A stretch of 64,000 bases of DNA from contig JADGPG010000056.1 of NCBI GenBank assembly GCA_017882545.1, forward strand, positions 1 to 64,000, read 5' to 3'. Source of the DNA: Thermoleophilia bacterium (GTDB taxonomy: Bacteria > Actinomycetota > Thermoleophilia > Miltoncostaeales > Miltoncostaeaceae). The stretch's first letter is position 1. The number at the start of each line of letters is the position of its first letter. The notes beneath the pieces are model-generated. The model ran no database searches and had not been told where the DNA came from. It was given only the letters and a program-made list of their open reading frames with translations. This document shows positions 8,364 through 63,820 of the stretch, in pieces. The position numbers and the translations under genes were made by a program.

Positions 8364-9677
8364 ATGGCGGAGCTGTGGGGTGCTGAGACCAGCAAGGCAG
8401 TCGACAATTTTCCGGTGTCCGGTGAGCGGGTTCCGCTTCCGGTCGTGCGCTGGCTGGGCCGGATCAAGGGCGCTGCCGCACGCGTGAACGCCGATTTGGG
8501 ACTGCTCGATGCGGATCTCGCCGGCAAGATCGCCGCCGCCGCCGACGAGGTGGCTCAGGGCAAGCACGACGACCAGTTCCCGATCGACGTCTTCCAGACG
8601 GGTTCCGGAACCTCTTCCAACATGAACGCCAACGAGGTCCTGGCAAGCCTGTCCGGGGCGCACCCGAACGACCATGTCAACATGGGCCAGAGCTCCAACG
8701 ACGTATTTCCCTCCGCCGTGCACCTGGCGGCGTTGGAGGAGACGACCAAGCAGCTGCTGCCCGCGCTCACCCATCTCGCTGATGCGTTCGGCGCGAAGGC
8801 CGTAGCATTCAAGGATCTCGTCAAGTCGGGCCGCACCCACCTGATGGACGCGGTACCCGTGACCCTCGGCCAGGAGTTCGCCGGCTATGAGGCACAGATT
8901 CGTCAGGCGGTTGCCCGCGTGGAGGACGCCGTTCCGCGCCTTGCGCAGATCCCGCTCGGCGGCACCGCCGCCGGCACCGGGCTCAACACCCACGCGGAGT
9001 TCGCCGGTCGCGTGCGTGAGCTGCTCGCGAAAGACACCGGTCTGACCATCAACCCGCCCGCGCACCCGTTCGAAGCGCAGGGCAACCGGGACGGCCTCGT
9101 CGAGCTCTCCGGAGTGCTCAAGGTGATCGCGGTCTCGCTGACCAAGATCGCCACCGATCTGGCCTGGATGGGGTCCGGCCCGCGGTGCGGGCTCGGCGAG
9201 ATCTACCTCCCCGAGCTCCAGAAGGGCTCGTCGATCATGCCGGGCAAGGTAAACCCGGTCATTCCCGAGGTGGTCACCCAGGTCGCCGCCCAGGTGATCG
9301 GCAACGACGCTGCGATCACGATCGGCGGCATGCAGGGCAACTTCGAGCTGAACGTCCGCATTCCGCTGATGGCCCGCAACCTGCTCCAGTCGATCCACCT
9401 GCTGACCAGCGCATCAACGCTTCTGGCCGACAAATGCGTGTCGGGAATCGAGCCCAATCTCGAAGGACTCGAGCGCAGCGCGGAGGGCACGCTCGCCGTG
9501 GCCACCGCCCTGAACCCCTATATCGGGTACGACAAAGCGACCGACATCGTCAAGGACGCGACAAAGTCCGGGCGTTCGCTGCGGGACGTCGCGCGCGAGC
9601 ACGGCGTCGACGAGAAGACGCTCAACACCGCACTGAACCTCCGTGAGATCGCGGCGGGTTCCGGCGTGGCCGAGTAG
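8364..9677 (+). CDS. fumC: Class II fumarate hydratase
   Basis: Fumarase interconverts fumarate and L-malate in the citric acid cycle. The 437-residue protein has TGSGTSSNMNANEV, KSGRTHLMDAVPVTLGQEF and the superfamily signature GSSIMPGKVNPV (288-299) with the catalytic Ser loop. The sequence after the signature (PEVVTQVAAQVIGNDAAI) matches actinobacterial FumC as I remember it; aspartase is a close relative but less likely given these blocks. The ATG at 8364 has AAGGAG at a good distance. The gene ends at a bidirectional hairpin shared with the metal-transport operon. Confidence 0.92.
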   Translation: MAELWGAETSKAVDNFPVSGERVPLPVVRWLGRIKGAAARVNADLGLLDADLAGKIAAAADEVAQGKHDDQFPIDVFQTGSGTSSNMNANEVLASLSGAHPNDHVNMGQSSNDVFPSAVHLAALEETTKQLLPALTHLADAFGAKAVAFKDLVKSGRTHLMDAVPVTLGQEFAGYEAQIRQAVARVEDAVPRLAQIPLGGTAAGTGLNTHAEFAGRVRELLAKDTGLTINPPAHPFEAQGNRDGLVELSGVLKVIAVSLTKIATDLAWMGSGPRCGLGEIYLPELQKGSSIMPGKVNPVIPEVVTQVAAQVIGNDAAITIGGMQGNFELNVRIPLMARNLLQSIHLLTSASTLLADKCVSGIEPNLEGLERSAEGTLAVATALNPYIGYDKATDIVKDATKSGRSLRDVAREHGVDEKTLNTALNLREIAAGSGVAE

Positions 9678-9686
9678 TTCCCGCGC

Positions 9687-9717
9687 AACGGGCGGCGTGC
9701 CTCGCACGCCGCCCGTT
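9687..9717. terminator. Bidirectional terminator between fumC and the metal ABC operon
   Basis: A perfect 14-base-pair stem (9687-9700 with 9704-9717) closes a CTC loop. It lies between the stops of two convergent transcripts, as expected of a shared terminator, and has no U-tract. Confidence 0.8.
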
Positions 9718-9725
9718 CGCAGTTC

Positions 9726-10577
9726 CTAGCGCGGGCCCGGCACCGCACTGCCCATCACGCCACGACGGCGTCCTCGCAATCGCTCGGGCAGAACCGCTGC
9801 GGCAAATGCAAGCGCAGCAACACCGACGATCGCGCTGCTGGGCGCCACCGACGGGATCTCGGCACTGACCCACAGCCCCAGCCATGCCGACCCCACGGCG
9901 ATCCCCACTGCGAGGGACATTCCCCGGTAGGGGCGGCCGGACAGACGATGCGCAGCACCGGCCGGGGCCGACACCAGCCCGATCAGGAGCAACGCCCCGA
10001 CCGCCTGGGTCGCCTCTGCGGCCACGCCACCGAGGACCACGAAGTACATCAGCCCGAGCATCGCCACCGGCAGACCGCGGGACCGGGCGACCCCGGGATC
10101 AATGCTTGCGAACACCAGTGGCCTGGCGATCGCCACCAACACCACCGCAACGGCGCCCGCAATCAGGATGGCGGTCACCGCGTGGGCGGTATCGATGCCG
10201 GAGATATCGCCGAACAGCGCAACGGCAGCGGTTGCACCCTCACCAGCCGCGCCCCCGCGAGCCACGACCGCCAGTGCCAGCACACCAAGCCCGAGCACCC
10301 ACGTCACGGCGATCCCGATCGTCACATCGTCGACGCGTCCGCGTCCCCCGAGCGCGACGAGCAAGAGCGCGCAACACAGCGTCAGGCCGAACAGCCCGAC
10401 CCGCGGGTCAATCGAAAAGGCCACGGCGGCGACAGCTCCGGTGAACGCGAAATGGCTCATGGCGTCGACCGCAAACACTTGGGCGCGCAACACCGCGAAC
10501 CACCCCACAAGTCCGCAGACCGCCGCGATCGCGGTCAGCGCCAGAAAGGTCGGGATCGATACGAGCAGGATCGTCAT
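9726..10577 (-). CDS. Metal ABC transporter permease (ZnuB/MntB family), second copy
   Basis: An ABC-3 family inner-membrane permease of 283 residues with about eight hydrophobic segments and the family's cytoplasmic coupling region (LVFASIDPGVARSRGLP). It is the last gene of a four-gene importer operon. Its ATG at 10577 overlaps the stop of the preceding permease gene (ATGA). Two adjacent, different permeases suggest a heterodimeric channel, as in some Mn/Zn importers. The C-terminus is short and basic. Confidence 0.85.
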   Translation of the reverse strand: MTILLVSIPTFLALTAIAAVCGLVGWFAVLRAQVFAVDAMSHFAFTGAVAAVAFSIDPRVGLFGLTLCCALLLVALGGRGRVDDVTIGIAVTWVLGLGVLALAVVARGGAAGEGATAAVALFGDISGIDTAHAVTAILIAGAVAVVLVAIARPLVFASIDPGVARSRGLPVAMLGLMYFVVLGGVAAEATQAVGALLLIGLVSAPAGAAHRLSGRPYRGMSLAVGIAVGSAWLGLWVSAEIPSVAPSSAIVGVAALAFAAAVLPERLRGRRRGVMGSAVPGPR

Positions 10578-52686: not shown

Positions 52687-52725
52687 CCGCCGACCATCGT
52701 CTTCGTGCCGAGAGGCCGCCGTTTC

Positions 52726-53055
52726 GTGAGCCCACAACTGCTGTTGTTTGTCGTCGTCCTGTTCGGGGCGATTTACGTCTTCATGATCCTGCCTCAGCGC
52801 AGGGCTCGGCGTTCTCAGCAAGAACTGATCACCAAGCTGGGCCCCGGAGCGGAAGTGATCACCACCGGCGGGCTCTATGGAACCGTCACGGAGATCGAGG
52901 ATGGCGACACCGTCTTGCTTGAGGTTGCCGAAGACACCGAGATCCGCATCTCGAAGGCCGCGATCGTCCGGGTCACGACCGGCACGGGCGTCCCGGAGCA
53001 CGAGGATTCCGGTCCGGACACCGCCGAGGCGGACGCCGACACCGACAACGGGTAG
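52726..53055 (+). CDS. yajC: Preprotein translocase subunit YajC
   Basis: YajC is a small membrane partner of SecDF. The 109-residue protein has one N-terminal membrane helix (QLLLFVVVLFGAIYVFMILPQ), the basic RRARRSQQE that follows, and the family's GAEVITTGGLYGTVTEIED domain, then an acidic tail. GTG 52726 is chosen so the membrane helix starts at once. secDF follows 3 bases later. Confidence 0.92.
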   Translation: MSPQLLLFVVVLFGAIYVFMILPQRRARRSQQELITKLGPGAEVITTGGLYGTVTEIEDGDTVLLEVAEDTEIRISKAAIVRVTTGTGVPEHEDSGPDTAEADADTDNG

Positions 53056-53058
53056 GGC

Positions 53059-55914
53059 ATGACCAGGCGCCGCCGGTCACTGCTGCTGCTGTTGCTGGTC
53101 GCCGGGCTGACGCTCGCGTCGCTGGTGGCCATTGCCGTGCGCCCCGTGGTGCTCGGGCTCGACCTGCGCGGCGGCGTGCAAGTGATTCTCCAGGGCAAGC
53201 CGACCGTCGACTCCCAGGTCAATTCGGCGTCGATTCAACGGTCGGTCGACATCATCAACAACCGGGTCAACGCGTTCGGTGTCGCCTCGCCGTCGATCCA
53301 GACCCTCGGTTCGGACCAGATCTCGGTTCAGCTGCCGGGCGTCAACAACCCGAACGAAGTCGTCACCAACCTGATCAAGCCGGCCCAGCTGGCGTTCTAC
53401 GACTACGAGAACAACGTCGTCGCCGGAACGCCGTCGACGAGCCTCTACAACACCGTCCTGCAGGCCCAGAAGACCCACGTCGCCGACCCCTCCCGAGGGG
53501 CCGAGACGCTCTACGCGTTCAACAAGACGACCCATAGGCTGACCGCCGGCCCCGAACCGATCACCGTCGGCGAGGACCGCGCCCAAGCCGTCCAGGCGCT
53601 GCGCGACAGCGTTGAAGGCGCCGGGCTTAGGTGGTCCGACCAGGTCGTCGAATCGGTGCCCAAAGGCCTGACGATCGCCGGCCAACAGCAGAAGCTGGCC
53701 ACCAACAGCAAGGTCGGCGTCACGACCTACCAGATCTTCCAGGACCGTCCTGCCCTGACGGGATCGGACATCAGTTCGGCATCGGTGCTGGCCAACTTCG
53801 GCAATGGCGGCAGTGGCCAGCCGGTGGTCACGATGTCGTTCACCGGCAAGGGTGCAACGGACTTCCAAAACGTGACGCGGGAGCTCGCCCAGCGCGGCAA
53901 GATCGCCGGCCAGAACCAGAGCTTCGCGATCGTCCTCGACGGCCTGCTGATCAGCAACCCGATTGTCGACTACACCCAGTATCCGCTAGGCATCGATGCC
54001 AGCAACGGCGCGCAGATCCAGGGGAACTTTAGCCAGTCACAAGCACAGACCCTGGCCGACCAGATCAACTCGGGCGCATTGCCGATCCGGCTCGTTCCGA
54101 TCAGCGAAAGTCAGGTGTCGGCAACCCTCGGGGCGCAGTCGCTGCGGCAGGGCCTGATCGCCGGAATCATCGGGCTGATCCTCGTTCTGATCTTCCTGAT
54201 TGCCTACTACCGCCTGCTAGGCATCGTTGCGGCGATGGGGCTCCTCATCTACGCGGCGCTCTTCTACGCGGTGGTCGTACTCTGGCCGATCACCCTGACG
54301 CTCCCGGGCATCGCCGGAGTCATCCTCACGATCGGGATCTCCGCCGACGCCAACGTGATCATTTTTGAACGCGTGCGAGAAGAGGCACGCTCCGGCAAGA
54401 GCGCGGCGGTCGCCCTCTCACAGGGCTACAAGCGGGGCCTCGCCGCGATCGTCGACGCCAACGTCGTAACCCTGGCGACGGCGATCCTGGTGTTCATGTT
54501 CGCCACCGCGGGGCCCAAGGGCTTCGCCTTCACTCTGGGCGTCGGCGTCCTGATCTCGCTGTTTACCGCCGTGGTGGCGACACGGGCAATCTTCGGCGTG
54601 CTCATCGACAGCAAGGTCATCAGCGAAGACCGGTTTATGGGGCTCAAGAAGGGCCGCGTCTTCCACTTCGACTGGGTGGGGCATTGGCGCTGGTGGCTGG
54701 TGATCTCCACGGTTCCGGTCTGCATCGGGCTGATTTGGCTGGCGGTGTTCGGGCTCAATCTCGGCCTCGACTTCACCAGTGGCACCCGTATCACCACCGG
54801 GCTCGAACGCCCGGCGACCGTTGCCCAGGTACGCCAGACCGTCTCCTCGGCCGGGTTTCCGGACGCGACCGTGCAGGGCCTCACGTCGACGACCGGCGGC
54901 AAGAACAGCACCGAGTTCCAGATCGCGACCAAAGCGCTCGACCAAACGCAGATCCGGGCGCTCCGTCAGGCCCTGGACGTGCGCTACGGCGTCAATACGA
55001 AGACCTTCAACCTCGAGGAGGTCGGTCCGACATTCGGGCGCGAGGTGATCCGCAACGCGATCTACGCGATCGTGCTGAGCCTCCTGATCGTGCTGGCCTA
55101 CCTGATCATCCGATTCGAGTACCGGCTGGCGCTGCCCGCCATGCTGTCGGTGGTCCACGACGTCTTGCTCAGCCTCGGCGTCTACTCCATCACCGGGCGC
55201 GAAGTGACCAGCGATACGGTCGCAGCGCTGCTGACGATCCTCGGGTATTCGCTCTACGACGTCGTGATCGTCTTCGACCGGATCCGCGAGAACGTCCCGC
55301 TGATGAGGGGCTCCCGCTACCGCACGATCGTCAATCGCTCGATCAACGAGACGATCACCCGATCGGTGATCACGACGCTGATCACGCTGATTCCGGTCCT
55401 GAGCCTGTTCATCTTCGGCGGACCCACACTCCAGGACTTCTCGTTCGCCCTGCTTGTCGGCATCCTGTCCGGTGGCGTCTCGTCGATCGTGATCGCGGCC
55501 CCGCTGGCATCATGGTGGAAGGAGCACCAACCCGAACAGCGCAAGGCCGTTGGCAAGCGAAGCCGGCGACCGATCGACGATTCTCGCGACTCCGACGTCG
55601 TCGATGTCGCGGCCCTTGAGCGCGCTGAACGCGAGGTGATGGGATTGCCGGACCCCTACAACGAAGTTGAGACGCGCACACCTGAGATCGCCACCGGCGA
55701 CGAGCCCGACGACGAGCACGACGCGGCGCCCTCGATCGTCGAAGCCGTCGAGGCCGAACTCCTCGATGCCCCGCCGCCGCGCGAACCTTCGACGGAGGAG
55801 CTCGACGCGACCCCCGCCGAGGACACAACCGACACGCCGCCGGAGCCTGCCGCTCCCCGCGCTCCGCGCGAGCGGCGCCACCACCGCGCCCAGGACCGGA
55901 GGCGACGATCGTGA
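53059..55914 (+). CDS. secDF: Fused SecD-SecF protein translocase subunit
   Basis: SecDF uses the proton gradient to pull exported proteins through SecYEG. Here SecD (about 1-520) and SecF (about 530-810) form one 951-residue chain: LGLDLRGGVQV, large P1 domain, six-helix core with GISADANVIIFERVREE; then GLDFTSGTRI and LGYSLYDVVIVFDRIREN for SecF. A cytoplasmic tail of about 120 residues, acidic and Pro-rich, ends in a basic patch (RERRHHRAQDRRRRS). Separate secD and secF genes are usual in Actinobacteria, so the fusion is notable. The next gene's GTG overlaps its stop. Confidence 0.95.
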   Translation: MTRRRRSLLLLLLVAGLTLASLVAIAVRPVVLGLDLRGGVQVILQGKPTVDSQVNSASIQRSVDIINNRVNAFGVASPSIQTLGSDQISVQLPGVNNPNEVVTNLIKPAQLAFYDYENNVVAGTPSTSLYNTVLQAQKTHVADPSRGAETLYAFNKTTHRLTAGPEPITVGEDRAQAVQALRDSVEGAGLRWSDQVVESVPKGLTIAGQQQKLATNSKVGVTTYQIFQDRPALTGSDISSASVLANFGNGGSGQPVVTMSFTGKGATDFQNVTRELAQRGKIAGQNQSFAIVLDGLLISNPIVDYTQYPLGIDASNGAQIQGNFSQSQAQTLADQINSGALPIRLVPISESQVSATLGAQSLRQGLIAGIIGLILVLIFLIAYYRLLGIVAAMGLLIYAALFYAVVVLWPITLTLPGIAGVILTIGISADANVIIFERVREEARSGKSAAVALSQGYKRGLAAIVDANVVTLATAILVFMFATAGPKGFAFTLGVGVLISLFTAVVATRAIFGVLIDSKVISEDRFMGLKKGRVFHFDWVGHWRWWLVISTVPVCIGLIWLAVFGLNLGLDFTSGTRITTGLERPATVAQVRQTVSSAGFPDATVQGLTSTTGGKNSTEFQIATKALDQTQIRALRQALDVRYGVNTKTFNLEEVGPTFGREVIRNAIYAIVLSLLIVLAYLIIRFEYRLALPAMLSVVHDVLLSLGVYSITGREVTSDTVAALLTILGYSLYDVVIVFDRIRENVPLMRGSRYRTIVNRSINETITRSVITTLITLIPVLSLFIFGGPTLQDFSFALLVGILSGGVSSIVIAAPLASWWKEHQPEQRKAVGKRSRRPIDDSRDSDVVDVAALERAEREVMGLPDPYNEVETRTPEIATGDEPDDEHDAAPSIVEAVEAELLDAPPPREPSTEELDATPAEDTTDTPPEPAAPRAPRERRHHRAQDRRRRS

Positions 55915-56285
55915 CCCCACCATCGATTCGCGACGCTGTTGAGCAGGCCATCCTCCTGTCCGTCGGCGCCGCCGCACTGACCCGCGACCGGATCGAAGGG
56001 ATCGTGGGCGAGCTCGTGGCGCAAGGGCGGGTGTCCGCGGACGACGGTCGGGTGCTGGCGGAGCGGTTGATTGCTCGCGTCGTCGACCCCCAGCGACCGA
56101 GCCCGAGTGGGTTGGTTGGGCACGTCGAGGACACCCTTCGGGCCGCCCTGGCGGGCGCGGGCGTCGTGACGCGCGCCGAGGTCGACGATTTGCGGGTGCA
56201 TCTGGCCGAAGTTGACCACCGACTCCGCATCGTCGAAGGCAGCCCAATGCCCGCCGACACCGACGACGCCGTCGGCACCGACTAG
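55911..56285 (+). CDS. Small phasin-like helical protein, unknown function
   Basis: A 124-residue helical protein. It starts with an amphipathic Ala-rich helix (SIRDAVEQAILLSVGAAAL), then RDRIEGIVGELVAQGRVSADDGRVLAERLI, and ends with a coiled-coil-like RAEVDDLRVHLAEVDHRLRIVE. The pattern resembles PHA-granule phasin and related poly-Ala helical proteins, a weak match. It overlaps secDF (GTGA). Confidence 0.6.
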   Translation: MTPPSIRDAVEQAILLSVGAAALTRDRIEGIVGELVAQGRVSADDGRVLAERLIARVVDPQRPSPSGLVGHVEDTLRAALAGAGVVTRAEVDDLRVHLAEVDHRLRIVEGSPMPADTDDAVGTD

Positions 56286-56416: not shown

Positions 56417-57109
56417 ATGGCCCACTACGTTCGATCAATCACGCCCGCCGTTCCGCCGGGGCGCCCGCCGGGACCTGAACAGCCGTGGACCGGGTGGTGG
56501 CAGCCGTCGACAGACGACGAGGCCGCGATGTCCGGTGTCGGCGTCCTCGATACCGCTGGCCGGGACGTCCCGCATGCTGCGGAGCCCCAACGGCCCGATC
56601 GTCCCAACACGGAGTTTCGCGACGCCTCCATCGACCGCCCGGCAAACCCATCCGCCGGCGTCGAGGCCATGGACCGCGCCGGCTTGCGCCGGGTCGGGGT
56701 ACCGCCATCGGGGGCGCCCATCGACACCGCGGCTGCTGCTGCGGCTGACGGAGCGACCGCGGATCCTGCGCTACCGGGTCACTGGGCCGTGCTCGAGACC
56801 GCCGCCACGCGCGAACTCGATACTCGGTCCGAGGCCGCCAGCGACGCCGACTTTACGATTGAAGGCGTCGCACAACGCACCGGCGATCTTGTGTTCGTGG
56901 GTGTCACCTTCCCCGAACCGCTCGCCGTCGCACCCGACCCGTCGGCAATCCGCCTGACGATTGTCGGGGCCGCCAACGCGGACCTCGAGAGCGTGGCGGT
57001 CGCCCCCTTCGACGGCTTCGCCCCGGACCGGATCGGTTTCACCTTGATTGCCGCAGCGCTCAACCCGGGCGCCATGTGGGTCGATGGGCATTACCACGTG
57101 GGGGTCTGA
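56417..57109 (+). CDS. Unknown protein sharing a C-terminal domain with the gene at 57257
   Basis: A 230-residue protein. The first 130 residues are Pro/Ala-rich and likely disordered. The last 88 (about 56843-57106) form a domain running FTIEGVAQRTGDLVFVGVTF to WVDGHYHVGV; the same order of conserved positions ends the 57257 product. No known family is recognised. It has no signal peptide or membrane helix. GAGAAGG lies 10 bases before the ATG. It heads a tight three-gene run. Confidence 0.6.
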   Translation: MAHYVRSITPAVPPGRPPGPEQPWTGWWQPSTDDEAAMSGVGVLDTAGRDVPHAAEPQRPDRPNTEFRDASIDRPANPSAGVEAMDRAGLRRVGVPPSGAPIDTAAAAAADGATADPALPGHWAVLETAATRELDTRSEAASDADFTIEGVAQRTGDLVFVGVTFPEPLAVAPDPSAIRLTIVGAANADLESVAVAPFDGFAPDRIGFTLIAAALNPGAMWVDGHYHVGV

Positions 57110-57110
57110 C

Positions 57111-57260
57111 GTGTCGCGTCGCCGCCTCCACGCCGCCCGCACCACCGCGGTCGGCATCCCGGAAACGTTCCTCGCACAGCACGGCCCGGCTTCGTCATAC
57201 CCTGAGGATCCGGAGACCCGCAGCGCCGGTCGTGCCGAATGGAAGAAGACTCCCTCATGA
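57111..57260 (+). CDS. Possible 49-residue protein between the two unknown genes
   Basis: An open frame from GTG 57111, one base past the preceding stop, to TGA 57258-57260, which overlaps the ATG of the next gene. It encodes a basic start (SRRRLHAARTTAV), GIPETFLAQHGPASSYPEDP and ends RAEWKKTPS. About three quarters of third codon positions are G or C, somewhat below the neighbours, so coding is plausible but not proven. It fills the gap exactly, as small coupled genes do. Confidence 0.45.
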   Translation: MSRRRLHAARTTAVGIPETFLAQHGPASSYPEDPETRSAGRAEWKKTPS

Positions 57261-59503
57261 TCCCCTTGAACGCAGAACTCATGGTCGGCGCGGCCGCACT
57301 GCTCGTGCTCCTGGTGCTGATGTCGCTGCGCCGCCGCCGTGCCGCAAGCGCCAACGCCCCCGTCGAGACCAACGGCGATGAAGCCGCCACCGAAGCGCGC
57401 TTCCGCCGGTTCATGCGCAAAAGCACCCGCGCCAAAGCGTCCACCGAGGCCGACGACGACGTCGCCGTCGCAACCACTGGAACGCTTCCGGCCGTCGCCG
57501 TCGCGACCGCCGTGCAGGCCGATGCCGATGGCGAGACGCCCGAGGTCGACATCGACGCACCCGACGCCGGCGCCGACGAGGCCGCACATGAGGCTGCGCC
57601 CGTCCTTGATGGCGCGGCAACGAGCGAGGTCGACGCGACGCCCGAACCGGTAACCGCGCCCGAGCCTGTTGCCGACCCCGAAACCGAGCCGTCGCTCACA
57701 GCGGAGGCGGAGACCGCCGACGCGAACCACACGGACCTCGGCGCGCCGGAGCATCCGGAACACGAGGCGGTCGGTGAACCCGTCAACGGGAGCGGCAACG
57801 GCCATGCCAATGGCCGCGACCAGCTCAACGGTCATGACGACCACGACGAGGACGATGCTGATTTGTTCTTCGGACGTCCCTACGACCACGCCGACGACGA
57901 GCCCGACTGGGACGCGATGCGCCACCCCGCACCGGCGATGGCAGCTGCGACGCTGGCGTCGGTCCCGGCTGCCGAGACGACGGCCATGGACACGCTCCCG
58001 GCACCGTCGTCCGCAACGACCGACGATGCCCTGATCACGCGGCCGGGTTGGCCCCTCCCGGGCGACCTCGAAGCATGGGAGAGTGCCGACATGGCTGACA
58101 TGTCGAATCACCCCTCCGATGCAGATCTCGGACACTGGGCCGAGGCGGCCGCTGCGCGCGCCGACAATGGCGCCGGCTTCCCGCCCCACGACGCGGGCGC
58201 CGGACCGGGCGTGAATCTGAGTAGCCCGTCGGCGTACGACGCCCTCCAGCCGCCGGCAAACGACACGCCCCCGGCACCGACCATCGGCACGCCCGATCCG
58301 GTCGCCTTCAGCGCCAGCAACAACCCGTCCGGGCCCGACCCGTCGCACTCCGAGGGCCACATGGACCCCAGCTTCTGGGAGATCGGGCAGCCGTCCGCAG
58401 CGCAGCCGGCCGAGACCTGGCCGCCTGCGGCGCAGCCGTCCGAGACCCAGCAGTGGTCGACCCCGAACAACGTCGCTGCACCGGGCGGCGGAACGCCGGA
58501 ACCCACGCCGGCGCCCGCTGCCGCGACGCCATCTGACCCCGCCCTGAGCGCGGACGACTGGTGGAACGCACCGCCGCCGAACGAGGTCACCGTGACGCCC
58601 GTGGCGGCGCCTGATGCCACCGGCATGCAGCGCCCGACCGTTGGTGACAACGCAGCGGACGCGGAGTGGTGGGGGACCCCCACGGTTCCGGGTGCGCCGG
58701 CAACGCCCGCCGCGGACGAATCCTGGTGGGTCGCGCCCAACTCCCCGCCCGATCCTGCGGCCACGCCCCAAATGGCGCCGCCGGCCGCGCCGCCGGTTCC
58801 GGAGGCCGCCACGCCGGTCCCCGTGCCCGGCATGGTGACGCCCGCCATTCCGGAGGCAAGCATTCCCCCGGTCCCGACGCCGCCGGCCGTGCCCGCGACG
58901 ACGCCTGAGGCAGCAGCCCCGGTCGCGCCGCGTTACGCGATTCCCGAGGCCGCCCCGATGGCAGCCGAACCGCAGGTCGTCGAACAGCCCGTCGCACCCG
59001 TGACACCTCCACCGGTGATCGCGGTGATCCCGGAGCCTGCCGCACCCGCTGCTCCCGCCTCCAAGGTGCCGTCACCGGACTCGGTGGCCGCACCGGTCGC
59101 CGCCACCACGGCCCCCGGCGACGAGACGGCGTTCCCACCCGTCCCGTCGGCTGCCCGGGTGCTGCCACGCCTCGACGCCGGCGCAAAGAATCCGCCTGCC
59201 AACGGACGATTCGCCGTCGGCGGCACGGCCGTCGCCCCCGGTGACGGGGCGTTCACGCGCGTGCGCTTCCGCGCACCGCTGTCGCGCCCGATCATTGGTT
59301 GGGGAATCGGCGACGAGCCCGATTACGCGCCCGGAACGTTGGTCCTCATCGTCGACGCCGTCCTGAACTGCTCGGCCGACGGACTTGCCGTTCTGCAGGA
59401 TGACGGCGACCCGAACCGCCCCGAGGGTTTCACCCTCAGCCTCTCCTCACACGCCCCCGGACCGTTCGCGGTCAGCGGCACGTACCACGTGGTGAGCGGG
59501 TAA
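57257..59503 (+). CDS. Membrane-anchored low-complexity protein with Trp-Trp repeats and a C-terminal domain
   Basis: A 748-residue protein. One N-terminal membrane helix (about 9-24) is followed by RRRR; by the positive-inside rule the rest is probably cytoplasmic. A long disordered tail rich in Ala, Pro, Asp, Glu follows. It carries three D/E-x-Trp-Trp-x-x-Pro motifs (DDWWNAP, AEWWGTP, ESWWVAP) plus single-Trp relatives. The last 100 residues (59201-59500) form a domain like that of the 56417 product, ending GTYHVVSG. ATG 57257 overlaps the small ORF; an ATG at 57239 is the alternative. No family is recognised. Confidence 0.65.
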   Translation: MIPLNAELMVGAAALLVLLVLMSLRRRRAASANAPVETNGDEAATEARFRRFMRKSTRAKASTEADDDVAVATTGTLPAVAVATAVQADADGETPEVDIDAPDAGADEAAHEAAPVLDGAATSEVDATPEPVTAPEPVADPETEPSLTAEAETADANHTDLGAPEHPEHEAVGEPVNGSGNGHANGRDQLNGHDDHDEDDADLFFGRPYDHADDEPDWDAMRHPAPAMAAATLASVPAAETTAMDTLPAPSSATTDDALITRPGWPLPGDLEAWESADMADMSNHPSDADLGHWAEAAAARADNGAGFPPHDAGAGPGVNLSSPSAYDALQPPANDTPPAPTIGTPDPVAFSASNNPSGPDPSHSEGHMDPSFWEIGQPSAAQPAETWPPAAQPSETQQWSTPNNVAAPGGGTPEPTPAPAAATPSDPALSADDWWNAPPPNEVTVTPVAAPDATGMQRPTVGDNAADAEWWGTPTVPGAPATPAADESWWVAPNSPPDPAATPQMAPPAAPPVPEAATPVPVPGMVTPAIPEASIPPVPTPPAVPATTPEAAAPVAPRYAIPEAAPMAAEPQVVEQPVAPVTPPPVIAVIPEPAAPAAPASKVPSPDSVAAPVAATTAPGDETAFPPVPSAARVLPRLDAGAKNPPANGRFAVGGTAVAPGDGAFTRVRFRAPLSRPIIGWGIGDEPDYAPGTLVLIVDAVLNCSADGLAVLQDDGDPNRPEGFTLSLSSHAPGPFAVSGTYHVVSG
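58553..58738 (+). repeat. Three Trp-Trp motifs in the low-complexity tail
   Basis: Paired TGG codons at 58559, 58667 and 58724 encode the Trp-Trp of three acidic-Trp-Trp-x-x-Pro motifs. Spacings are 108 and 57 bases. The intervening sequence is Pro/Ala-rich and not conserved, so the motifs and not the linker are kept. Confidence 0.65.
59201..59500 (+). other. C-terminal domain shared with the 56417 gene product
   Basis: Both domains run F-x-[IV]-x-G-x-A, then G-D, then F-x-x-V-x-F-x-x-P-L, then a variable middle, and end with G-x-Y-H-V. The copy here carries extra residues in the middle. The alternation of short strands suggests a beta-sandwich. Confidence 0.55.
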
Positions 59504-59555: not shown

Positions 59556-61199
59556 ATGACCTCCGAGCGGCGCCAAAACCTCGCCCGCGCACGTGAAATT
59601 ACGCGCGTGGCCGCCCGCTACGGATTCGGCCAGCTGTTCGGTCGCTCTGCCGCAAAGGCTGCCGCCGACGCACCCGAGGTGCCCGGCACACGAGGACGCC
59701 GGCTCCGCGACATGCTCGACGAGCTTGGGCCGACGTTCGTCAAATTCGGACAGCTGCTGTCCACCCGCCCGGACATCGTCCCGGCAGACATCGTCGTCGA
59801 GCTCCGCCAGCTGCAAGACCAGGCGCGGCCCGAGCCGTTCGACAACGTCCGGGCCGTCCTTGAACAGGAGCTCGCGCTTTCCATCGAGCAGGTGTTCACC
59901 GAGTTCGACCCCCAGCCCATCGCATCTGCGTCCATCGGCCAGGTGCACCTCGCCCGACTGCCGACCGGCGACGAGGTCGTCGTCAAGGTCCAACGCCCCG
60001 ACGCGGACAGACAGATCAACGCCGATCTCCAGCTGCTCTACCAGCTGGCCCGCATGCTCAACGATCGGGTCGACCGGCTGTCGTTTATCGACCTCACCGG
60101 CCTCGTCGACGAGTTCTCGCGCTCGATCCGACGGGAGCTCGATTACGGCGTTGAGGCCCGCAACGCCGAGGCGTTCGGGCGGTACTTCGCCCAGGACGTC
60201 CACGTCGACGTTCCGAAGATCTTCTGGCGGTACACGACATCACGGGTCGTGGTGATGGAACGGGTCCAAGGGACATCCCTGGCGCAGGCATCGGTGGACG
60301 ACTGGACCGACGACGAGCGCCGAACGCTGGCCGCCCGACTGGCCGAGACCTGGATGCAGATGGTCTTCGTCCATGGCTTCTTTCACGCCGACCCGCACCA
60401 GGCCAACATCCTGATCCAGGCGCCCGACCACATCGGCCTCGTGGACTTCGGGATGGTCGGTCAGCTGTCCCAGCGGGACCGGGAGGCGATGGTCGGACTG
60501 TTGATCGACGTCCTCGACCTCAACGCCGACGCGCTCCCGCGCAGGCTCCGCGACCTCGGCTTGCGCTACCCGCGCCACCGCGAACAGGAGCTCGCCGACC
60601 AGCTCGGGGTTGTACTCCAACGCTACAGCGGCCAGGCGATGGGGGAGATTGACGCGCGATCGATGCTGTCGGAGATCTTCCAGACCGTCTACCGGCTGCA
60701 GCTCACATTGCCGACCCGCTGGGTCATGCTGGACAAGACGCTGGCGACGTTGGCGGGGGTCACCCTTCAGCTGGCGCCCGACTTCAACGTGTTCGAGTCC
60801 GCGCGCCCCTACGCCCGCCGGCTGATGGCGGACCGCCTGCGACCCGATCGGATCGCCGAGCGCGCCCGACACGACATCGACCGCAGCGTCCGGGTCGCCC
60901 GCGAATTCCCGTACCTGGTTGGCGAACTCCTCAACGATCTCACCGACGGTGATTTCTCGGTGGGGATCCAGGTGCACGACCTTCCCCAAGCCACGGACCG
61001 CGTCGAACGCGCCGCCAACCGCCTCGTGCTTGCGCTGCTCGCATTTGGGATGTTGGTGTCCTCGGCCATCATCGGTGCGCTGCTGCACACCCGCGTGGCC
61101 GTCGGCGGGTTCGCCCTCCTCGCCATCGTCCCGGGGTTTGCCGGTTTCTGTCTGATTGTGCTGCTCATCGTCGGCATCATCAGATCGGGGAAGTGGTAG
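59556..61199 (+). CDS. ABC1/UbiB-family atypical kinase
   Basis: A 547-residue UbiB-family protein. KFGQLLSTRPDIVP (KxGQ), the Ala-rich nucleotide loop PIASASIGQVHLARL, VVVKVQRP, HADPHQANILI and DFGM are all visible. Two membrane helices end the chain (VLALLAFGMLVSSAIIGALL, FALLAIVPGFAGFCLIV). UbiB proteins support quinone synthesis or membrane lipid handling; here the organism may use menaquinone, so the exact role is open. recJ overlaps its stop. Confidence 0.88.
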   Translation: MTSERRQNLARAREITRVAARYGFGQLFGRSAAKAAADAPEVPGTRGRRLRDMLDELGPTFVKFGQLLSTRPDIVPADIVVELRQLQDQARPEPFDNVRAVLEQELALSIEQVFTEFDPQPIASASIGQVHLARLPTGDEVVVKVQRPDADRQINADLQLLYQLARMLNDRVDRLSFIDLTGLVDEFSRSIRRELDYGVEARNAEAFGRYFAQDVHVDVPKIFWRYTTSRVVVMERVQGTSLAQASVDDWTDDERRTLAARLAETWMQMVFVHGFFHADPHQANILIQAPDHIGLVDFGMVGQLSQRDREAMVGLLIDVLDLNADALPRRLRDLGLRYPRHREQELADQLGVVLQRYSGQAMGEIDARSMLSEIFQTVYRLQLTLPTRWVMLDKTLATLAGVTLQLAPDFNVFESARPYARRLMADRLRPDRIAERARHDIDRSVRVAREFPYLVGELLNDLTDGDFSVGIQVHDLPQATDRVERAANRLVLALLAFGMLVSSAIIGALLHTRVAVGGFALLAIVPGFAGFCLIVLLIVGIIRSGKW

Positions 61200-63820
61200 T
61201 GGCCTGGCGTGCCCGTCGCGTCCCGTTTGCGACCGTCCGGACGCTTCGCGACACCCTCGAAATCCCGGAGGCCCTGGCCTGGACCCTCGTCCGACGCGGG
61301 CTCGACACACCGGAATCGGCGTCCGAGTTCATCCGGGCCGACGGACCGCTCGATCCACCCGAATCACTGGACGGCGTCGCCGACATCGCCGACCGGCTGC
61401 TGGCGGCCGTCGCCGCCGGCCGCCGCATTGCCATTCATGGCGACTACGACTGCGACGGGGTGTGTGCGACGGCGGTTCTCACCCGGCCACTGCGGAGCCT
61501 CGGCGCGGATGTCGTCACGTTCCTCCCGAGCCGCTTCACTGACGGCTACGGCGTGCGCGTTGAAACGGTCGAACTCCTGGCGGACGACGGCGCCTCCGTG
61601 CTCGTGTGTGTCGACTGCGGCACCTCGGCAATCGACGCCCTGACCAGGGCCGCCGAACTCGGCATGGAACCGCTCGTGCTCGACCACCACCTGGCCGGGG
61701 GCCAGCGCCCGCCGGGCCTGATAGCCAACCCTGCGCTTGGGATCGCCCCACCCGACGCCCCGGCTGCGGTTGGGGTCGTGTTCGCCGTCGTGCGCGCCCT
61801 TGCCGACCGCACGGGGGGCGGGCTCCTCGGTATCGACGCCGAGGCCGAGCTCGACCTGGTCGCGCTCGCAACGGTCGCGGATGCCGTACCGCTCGTGGGC
61901 CAGAATCGGCGGTTGGTGATGCGGGGTCTTGCGCAGATGCGCCGCGCCCCCCGACCCGGAATCGTCGCCCTGTGCCAGGCTGCCGGCGTCGATCCGCGCA
62001 CGCTCGATGCCCGCGCGCTCGGATACACGATCGCGCCGGTCATCAACGCCGCGGGACGGCTCGAGCATCCCGACCGGGCCCTGGCCCTGCTGCTCGACGA
62101 CGATGTCGGCCGCGCCCGCGTGATCGCCGACGAGCTCTGGAAGGTCAACTCCGACCGCCGCGACGTCGAGCAGCTCATCACCGCCGAGGCGATTGCGCAG
62201 ATCGAGGCATCGCCGCCGGAGATCCGCGACGCCAATGCCATCGTCGCCATCGGCGACGGCTGGCACGAGGGCGTCATCGGCATCGTCGCCTCGCGCCTTG
62301 TCGACCACTTCGACCGCCCGGCGCTGGTGCTTGCGCGAGACGGCGACGTGGCCAAGGGGTCAGGGCGCAGCCTGCCCGACCTCGATCTGCACGACCTGCT
62401 CGCGCGCGCCTCCGGGCGGCTGACGCGGTGGGGTGGCCATGCCGGAGCCGTCGGCCTGCAGCTACCCGCCGACGAGGTGGCCGCCTTCCGCGACGAGCTG
62501 CTCGCCGCTGCCGGGTCGCTGGCGGAGGTCCTCGACCGGGTCCGGGTCCGTCCCGTCGACGCCGTCGTCGGTGCGCGTGAGCTGACCCTCGAAACCGCCG
62601 AGGCCTTCGAGACCCTTGCTCCGTTCGGCCGCGGCAATCCGCAACCGCGCTTGCTGATGCCCGGGTGTACCGCCGAGGCCGCCGGTGTCATGGGCAAGAG
62701 CCGCCAACATCTCAACGTCCGTCTGCACTGCGGCGGCGCGCACCTGCGTGCGGTGGGGTTCGGTCACGGCCACAGGCGCGATTCCCTGTCCGATGGATCC
62801 CGGATCGACGCCCAGGTCCGACTCGGCATCGAGCGATACCAGGGCCTGGTCGGTCCGCGGGTCACCATCGACCGGATCGAACCCGTCGTCACCGGGCGCG
62901 ACGCGATCGCGTGTGCGCCCGCCTGCGATCTGCGGTGCCCCGCACGCCGGGGGCTTGCGGACGTCCGCGCGGGACTCGCGCCGCCGCCACCGCCAGATCA
63001 CCACAAGGCCGAGGGGCCGCCGCTCGGCGTCGAAGACCACCGCGGCGCAGGGGTCGGCCTCGTCCGGATCGCCGCATTGGCCGCTGCCGACGCCGGCGTG
63101 GTCGTGGTCGTCGGCGACGTGGCCCGGCGACGCGCGATGATCGCCGACGTCCTACATCCGGACCGCGTGGGTGTTGAGACCGCAACACTCGTCGGCAGCC
63201 GCTGCTCGGGCCCGGAGGCCGCGACCCGCCTCGCGCTGGCCGCGCGGCGGCCCGGGATCACGCTGGTCGACTACGCCGCACTCCCCGGGATGTCACTCCC
63301 GGAGGCGACCCACGTGGTGGTGCTGGACCCGCCACCGGATCCCTACCGGGCGGCAGATCTCTGCGCCGCGTCGGCCGGGCACTGGGTCCACGTCGTCTGG
63401 ACAGCACACGAGGTCACATTCATGCGCGCCCTCGCCACGGAGCGCTGGGACCTCCGCCCCCTGGCGCAACTGCTGTGGCCGGAGCTCAGTCGCAATCGCT
63501 CGTGGTCGTGGGACGCGGAGTTGGAGTCCGTGCTACTCGGAGATGGGCCGGCGATCCGCCCACTTGAGGCGGTGGCAGACGTGCTGGCAGCGTTTGCCGA
63601 GCTCGGCCTGGTCCACTTTTCGGCCGACGGCCTGAAGGTAGCGACGCCGGAGGCACGGCGTCCGTTCAGCGACGCGCCGCGCGCCGCGAGGGCCGCCGAA
63701 CGGCTGGGTGCGGAACTTGATTACCTCGACCTGGCGGCAACTCTCGAGCTCTTCCCGTCCGTCGGCGACTACCCCGAGATCCCCGTCCCCACGCCGTCGG
63801 AACCCTCTCACGCCGCCTAA
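61199..63820 (+). CDS. recJ: Single-strand-specific exonuclease RecJ with a long C-terminal extension
   Basis: RecJ degrades single-stranded DNA 5' to 3' in recombination and mismatch or base-excision repair. The 873 residues exceed the 550-600 of E. coli RecJ. The DHH core is clear: HGDYDCDGV, VCVDCGTS, VLDHHLAGG, and DHHA1-type GWHEGVIGIVASRL and RWGGHAGAVGLQL. OB fold QHLNVRLHCGGAHLRAVGFG follows. The last 300 residues are an extension resembling the C-terminal part of Gram-positive RecJ. GTG 61199 has GGGGAAG upstream; a GTG at 61193 is possible. Confidence 0.93.
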   Translation: MAWRARRVPFATVRTLRDTLEIPEALAWTLVRRGLDTPESASEFIRADGPLDPPESLDGVADIADRLLAAVAAGRRIAIHGDYDCDGVCATAVLTRPLRSLGADVVTFLPSRFTDGYGVRVETVELLADDGASVLVCVDCGTSAIDALTRAAELGMEPLVLDHHLAGGQRPPGLIANPALGIAPPDAPAAVGVVFAVVRALADRTGGGLLGIDAEAELDLVALATVADAVPLVGQNRRLVMRGLAQMRRAPRPGIVALCQAAGVDPRTLDARALGYTIAPVINAAGRLEHPDRALALLLDDDVGRARVIADELWKVNSDRRDVEQLITAEAIAQIEASPPEIRDANAIVAIGDGWHEGVIGIVASRLVDHFDRPALVLARDGDVAKGSGRSLPDLDLHDLLARASGRLTRWGGHAGAVGLQLPADEVAAFRDELLAAAGSLAEVLDRVRVRPVDAVVGARELTLETAEAFETLAPFGRGNPQPRLLMPGCTAEAAGVMGKSRQHLNVRLHCGGAHLRAVGFGHGHRRDSLSDGSRIDAQVRLGIERYQGLVGPRVTIDRIEPVVTGRDAIACAPACDLRCPARRGLADVRAGLAPPPPPDHHKAEGPPLGVEDHRGAGVGLVRIAALAAADAGVVVVVGDVARRRAMIADVLHPDRVGVETATLVGSRCSGPEAATRLALAARRPGITLVDYAALPGMSLPEATHVVVLDPPPDPYRAADLCAASAGHWVHVVWTAHEVTFMRALATERWDLRPLAQLLWPELSRNRSWSWDAELESVLLGDGPAIRPLEAVADVLAAFAELGLVHFSADGLKVATPEARRPFSDAPRAARAAERLGAELDYLDLAATLELFPSVGDYPEIPVPTPSEPSHAA

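Follow-up and report, generated by a model that had tools for sequence, protein, structure and literature searches.

A conserved pair of genes with homologous, predicted lectin-like C-terminal domains between secDF and ubiB in the Miltoncostaeaceae

Gene organization of the locus

Two genes of very different length in a contig of a Thermoleophilia bacterium (JADGPG010000056.1) end in what appears to be the same kind of domain, and we asked whether they constitute a conserved pair, what the shared domain resembles and which role the products may have. The window, i.e. the whole stretch of DNA analysed, comprises 64,000 nucleotides. A first-pass annotation made from the letters of this stretch had described open reading frames of 230 and 748 residues in a three-gene operon located between the export genes and ubiB. 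Both frames are present, here named genes A and B, with yajC and secDF upstream and ubiB and recJ downstream. The local order, all on the + strand, is yajC, secDF, p124, A, B, the ubiB-family kinase gene and recJ:

52705-53055, + strand, yajC
53059-55914, + strand, fused secDF
55911-56285, + strand, p124, a gene of 124 aa
56417-57109, + strand, gene A, open reading frame of 230 aa with orthologues at the same location in 14 genomes
57257-59503, + strand, gene B, open reading frame of 748 aa (start codon ATG at 57257) with orthologues in 18 genomes
59556-61199, + strand, gene of an ABC1/UbiB-family kinase
61193-63820, + strand, recJ

The product of gene A begins with a low-complexity part (MAHYVRS...PWTGWWQP) devoid of a membrane helix and continues into the C-terminal domain. 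That of gene B consists of an N-terminal membrane helix, a basic segment, a Pro/Ala/acidic linker with Trp motifs and the C-terminal domain. Searches of Pfam, NCBIfam and PADLOC gave no convincing family match for A or B; gene B returned zero Pfam families even at E 1, the PADLOC models of anti-phage defence left both unmatched at E 0.1, and a set of 32 domain sequences compared with PHROG and Pfam gave nothing beyond chance-level single matches. No paper on the pair was found in the literature, where the topics Miltoncostaea and H-type lectin yielded nothing relevant. The initial impression that the genes belong to no described system thus agrees with these searches; the role proposed below is a putative one.

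The gene p124, where present, stands ahead of A. Its presence in the vicinity of ubiB is conserved at most of the Thermoleophilia loci examined; it was undetected at the A-B locus in several genomes retaining A and B, and it weakly matches the phasin-related model NF047773 (E 0.0016, below the cut-off).

The region between A and B

Analysis of the intergenic region did not bear out the 49-residue gene that had been placed between A and B (57111-57260). In the two nearest relatives, G002 and G003, A and the start of B are readable on either side of the gap, the frame is interrupted by in-frame stops and no similar product occurs in the same interval. The G+C content of 57111-57260 is flat over the three codon positions (0.67/0.65/0.76) and departs from the pattern of the neighbouring genes, in which position 2 has the lowest G+C (0.41-0.61). 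The A-B gap measures 15-200 bases in nine other genomes, in several of which a ribosome-binding-like GGAGG was identified. Since the 49-codon frame is broken in relatives, the G+C of the gap is flat and its length varies in this manner, A and B form a two-gene unit and not part of a three-gene operon; of the gene order whose conservation had been suggested as a check, the succession of A and B is kept and the 49-residue gene is not.

A structured RNA in the gap was also considered. The loci of 15 relatives contained no Rfam match above the gathering score, the window itself gave no convincing one, and the gap sequence is unconserved between genera, so that this candidate was dropped.

The C-terminal domains of A and B are homologous

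The domains shared by A and B, and a cysteine that distinguishes them, are located as follows:

56834-57106, + strand, A-type C-terminal H-type-lectin-like domain, 91 aa (AlphaFold2, Foldseek)
59192-59500, + strand, B-type C-terminal H-type-lectin-like domain, 103 aa (AlphaFold2, Foldseek)
59369-59371, + strand, sole cysteine of gene B, in an 'NC' turn, invariant in B-type domains and missing at that column in A-type domains (alignments)

Comparison of the A-type and B-type profiles with hhalign indicated that they are homologous (probability 99.8, E 4e-29, 89 columns), and in tblastn searches of relatives the A query retrieved B-type domains and the B query A-type domains. The two products therefore do share a C-terminal domain of about 90-100 aa, as had been noticed in the first reading. 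An alignment was made of 32 C-terminal domains from relatives, 13 of A-type and 19 of B-type, third copies being counted as B-type. Five positions, including one Asn, are invariant across all 32. In the B-type domains an invariant Cys directly follows the invariant Asn, forming the 'NC' turn; the conserved Cys is absent from the A-type domain, relative to which the B-type carries an insertion after strand 2.

The domain phylogenetic tree placed the A-type domains in one clade and the B-type domains in the other, with support of 100/99 for each, and A and B are, judging by these sequences, an ancient duplicated pair. G005 and G016, which are sister genomes, have a third tandem copy (L044 10211-11104; also in L048, on the reverse strand), with a B-like domain containing NC and a short N-terminal hydrophobic segment, a lineage-specific extra duplication.

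Comparison with G003 gave dN 0.14, dS 0.85 and a dN/dS of about 0.16 for the B domain, and dN 0.41 and dS 1.2 for the A domain. Between the B proteins of the two genomes the domain is 76% identical, the linker 44%. These values indicate that A and B are conserved under purifying selection. The longest B-type branches are those of G001 and G004 (1.41 and 1.26), two genomes in which A is absent. A faster evolution of B upon loss of A was rejected as a general explanation, since the UbiB branch of G001 is likewise the longest in the family (0.69) and only G004 is suggestive.

Distribution and history of the pair

Both genes were found at the same location in 14 genomes of the Miltoncostaeaceae (Actinomycetota, Thermoleophilia), and the conservation in relatives on which the first-pass annotation had staked its reading is thereby established. 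Four genomes, one of them with its locus truncated by a contig end, have a B-type gene and no A, whereas A without B was seen in none of the 18; A is absent in G001, G004 and G010. A domain-profile search of 299 genomes of the class returned 18 genuine matches, all in family f1. The lone match in the class outside the family, in G213 (E 3e-4), lies over a gene reading as GDP-mannose dehydratase-type and was treated as chance. Across the phylum (397 genomes) matches were likewise confined to f1 members. The domain was not found in viral contigs or plasmids. A profile search of genome contigs with an 8-sequence B-type set matched records named as Miltoncostaeaceae or as Thermoleophilia/actinobacterial MAGs, and may have missed very distant relatives beyond the sampled genomes. 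The A-B pair is real and conserved, and its range as found here is a single bacterial family.

At the loci examined, A and B, or B alone, sit between secDF and ubiB. In G010, where an ubiB match was not found, the B-like gene is retained nonetheless, with secDF on one side and recJ on the other. Other orders of the class have either nothing or unrelated genes in this interval (acyltransferase-like and lysyltransferase-like by sequence reading), and the arrangement yajC-secDF-ubiB(-recJ) without the pair is ordinary in the class. The pair is absent from one large genus (g9) and from G007. In the UbiB phylogenetic tree the G009/G018 lineage branches outside the rest of the family; since G009, on this deep branch, carries both A and B, the pair appears to be ancestral in the sampled family and, most simply, to have been lost afterwards in genus g9 and in G007. 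The A-type and B-type clades would accordingly be older than the split of the sampled genera, with the pair lost at least twice and A alone probably lost in G004 and G001.

A correlation of the pair with flagella or cell shape was also examined and rejected: flagellin, present in 10/42 genomes of the family, does not track the pair, and MreB is universal (42/42), with and without it.

The predicted fold resembles that of H-type lectins

The window sequences, aligned with their relatives, were used as input for AlphaFold2. The A-type model had a mean pLDDT of 95.9 and six beta strands, the B-type model a mean pLDDT of 91.4, and both are nearly all beta. Foldseek comparison with the PDB gave 2ccv, Helix pomatia agglutinin, as the best match of the A-type model (prob 1.00), and the same agglutinin occupied the top three places for the B-type model (prob 0.57-0.75); discoidin, SLL-2 and phage tailspikes were also among the matches. 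The two models are thus beta-sandwiches of one kind and share their best-matching solved structure, in agreement with the structural check suggested at the outset. The PDB matches are moderate (E 3e-3 and 4e-2; the best, E 3e-3, has a TM of 0.53). Against viral models, the A-type domain matched entries that carry the annotation 'H-type lectin domain' or tail fibre (E down to 8e-5, TM up to 0.77), one of them superposing to 1.6 A across 90 columns with a TM of 0.77.

Searches with the H_lectin family gave a different picture at the sequence level. No Pfam H_lectin match was obtained for A, B or any of the 32 domain sequences, a PF09458 search of genome G000 found nothing, and hhalign against six H_lectin sequences gave probabilities of 0.7-3%, below significance; the short segment aligned is the corresponding strand, 'VtF..pf...P', in register. 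The confident models do have the six-stranded antiparallel beta-sandwich of H-type lectins, with weak PDB E-values. Because the PDB statistics are moderate and a significant H_lectin profile link was not obtained, we claim a likeness in predicted fold and not membership of the H-type lectins.

The H-type lectins (2ccv/2ce6, the discoidin C-terminal domain, SLL-2; PF09458) are beta-sandwiches and the top Foldseek matches of both domains, whereas the A and B domains have no Pfam match and a predicted cytoplasmic position, and that of B is fused to a membrane helix and a disordered linker. Phage tail fibres and tailspikes (such as Vibrio phage phi 3 A0A0B5HEB6 and phi297 gp61) carry lectin-like domains of the same fold at their C-termini; however, no sequence relation to them was found in PHROGs or viral contigs, and A and B are chromosomal, inside a housekeeping cluster. 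In G379 (L095, frame 1) a galactose-oxidase-like protein, kelch-type by sequence reading, was observed to carry three H_lectin-like repeats at its C-terminus.

Membrane helix, linker and predicted topology of B

Two further features were identified in gene B:

57272-57328, + strand, membrane helix (residues 6-24, AELMVGAAALLVLLVLMSL, then RRRR; mean Kyte-Doolittle 2.39)
58025-58066, + strand, conserved linear motif of the linker (DALITRPGWPLPGD; family pattern D[DE]x[IV][IT][ED]PGWPxPG[DE])

The helix of B is preceded by zero charge and followed by a net charge of +3 in 15 residues. All B proteins with an intact 5' end have a hydrophobic helix with no or few charges before it and several Arg/Lys after it, G001 excepted; in G017 the helix lies in another frame, an apparent frameshift in the assembly. 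According to the positive-inside rule, basic residues after a helix place the C-terminus in the cytoplasm, and on this charge pattern B should be a single-pass protein with its linker and domain in the cytoplasm. The lone unpaired, invariant Cys of B would fit a reducing compartment and is no proof of it. Gene A of the window has no hydrophobic helix, and some other genera have a moderately hydrophobic stretch at the start of A; the description of A as soluble and B as membrane-anchored holds in the window's genus and is less clear-cut for the A proteins of those genera. In G001 (L040 6148-7134) both A and p124 have been lost, and the B protein is the only one seen to lack the helix where the contig includes the 5' end.

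The linker of B is acidic and, as annotated, Pro/Ala-rich, with Pro/Ala making up 36% of the protein. The PGWPxPG(D/E) motif was identified in 11/12 B linkers and is degenerate (AVAEPGWPMADRAW) in the twelfth. An enrichment of acidic-Trp motifs in the linkers was rejected, as 53 were observed and 51 expected from composition; WW pairs (11 against 4.8 expected) were not decisive. In the A protein of G021 (L047, oriented 8934-10121) the linker contains repeated 'LAEWxTxP'-like units, a similar unit being present in G023.

A possible membrane scaffold and its alternatives

From the observed gene structure, domain homology, model fold similarity, conservation and paralogue phylogeny, we tentatively favour a reading, possible but short of probable, in which B is a membrane-tethered cytoplasmic scaffold and A its paralogous partner, the two associating via the lectin-like fold. 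B would span the membrane once, with its N-terminus outside and its C-terminus inside as the charge distribution suggests, and its long, disordered, Pro/Ala-rich and acidic linker would present PGWPxPG(D/E) as a putative docking motif ahead of the small H-type-lectin-fold beta-sandwich. A, anchorless in the window's genus and ending in the same kind of domain, would co-assemble with B through the A-type and B-type domains at the cytoplasmic membrane face, giving a multivalent scaffold whose linkers may recruit other proteins as putative clients; a sugar-binding role of the fold would have been lost or never present. H-type lectin and tail-fibre domains with this fold are known as trimers. Co-assembly is favoured because the fold is typically trimeric, the paralogues are kept side by side and A was not found without B. 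That A and B form a matched pair in one complex, as the first-pass annotation had proposed, is reasonable in view of their co-conservation and shared ancestry. The conserved linear motif within an otherwise fast-evolving linker, and a membrane helix with no charge before it and several Arg/Lys after it, would also count for the scaffold. Against it count the apparent dispensability of A, absent in three genomes, the loss of the pair in one large genus and in G007, and the moderate PDB match together with the missing H_lectin profile link.

Sugar-binding lectins and the receptor-binding tips of phages also have this fold, and A and B might instead be surface lectins, with the linker crossing the cell wall, the domain binding glycans outside and the helix of B serving as anchor. 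Pro/Ala-rich linkers are common in wall-spanning regions, and the genes adjoin secDF. However, the charges around the helix predict C-inside for those B proteins whose 5' end is intact, the A of the window has neither a membrane helix nor an evident signal peptide, the B-type domains hold a single invariant unpaired Cys and a sequence link to true H_lectins was not found; we consider this reading improbable, and the predicted cytoplasmic position would likewise argue against glycan (GalNAc/Gal) binding by either domain. Just as improbable, in our estimate, is that B tethers a cytoskeletal protein through its domain in cell division or cell shape, in the manner of ZipA, with A as a competing soluble copy of the domain. 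ZipA is an N-out/C-in protein with an N-terminal helix, a basic and then Pro-rich disordered linker and a C-terminal globular domain. B has the same order of parts and predicted topology, the likeness in N-out/C-in orientation and linker being one of composition and charge, whereas its C-terminal domain is unrelated: B has no Pfam match and hence no ZipA C-terminal domain, the model shows the fold of H-type lectins, and neither Pfam nor the fold matches point to an FtsZ-binding domain. Moreover, B is accompanied by a paralogous partner, the universal MreB does not track the pair, and a functional link to division was not found.

The position of the genes between secDF and ubiB, or recJ if ubiB is missing, in the loci examined could mean that the two products work together with the Sec accessory complex YajC-SecDF or with the UbiB-family kinase encoded nearby, perhaps as an adaptor at the membrane that serves protein export or lipid/quinone handling. 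Since the cluster occurs class-wide without the pair and unrelated genes fill the same interval in other orders, this position may be inherited history, and G010 keeps a B-like gene with no ubiB match found; we regard such an adaptor as no less improbable than the two preceding readings. The fast divergence of the linkers, and the losses both of the whole pair and of a single gene, would suit fast-evolving, non-essential low-complexity proteins that have no specific role and are kept by chance. The purifying selection on the domains, with the dN/dS found for B, and the persistence of two paralogue clades across the family make this very improbable.

Under the scaffold reading, the novelty would lie in combining a fold that is known but escapes recognition by sequence with an architecture that is new and a compartment that probably is. 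Elsewhere the lectin-type fold is known from lectins secreted by animals and amoebae and from the receptor-binding tips of phages; that it was relocated to the cytoplasmic side of a bacterial membrane, there to serve as a hetero-oligomerising module and to found a lineage-specific two-protein scaffold, is a more specific proposal, which we hold to be rather doubtful. If the scaffold reading is right, the domains of A and B would make up a new family whose fold, though known, is in a part of the cell where it was not expected, and most genera of this little-studied family of actinobacteria would retain a membrane scaffold that is as yet uncharacterised. It would also be an instance of the H-type lectin fold being detectable by structure where sequence profiles fail. 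Two pair-bearing genomes are nearly or fully complete, one a single contig at 99% completeness and the other three contigs at 100%, and a strain for experiments may therefore exist.
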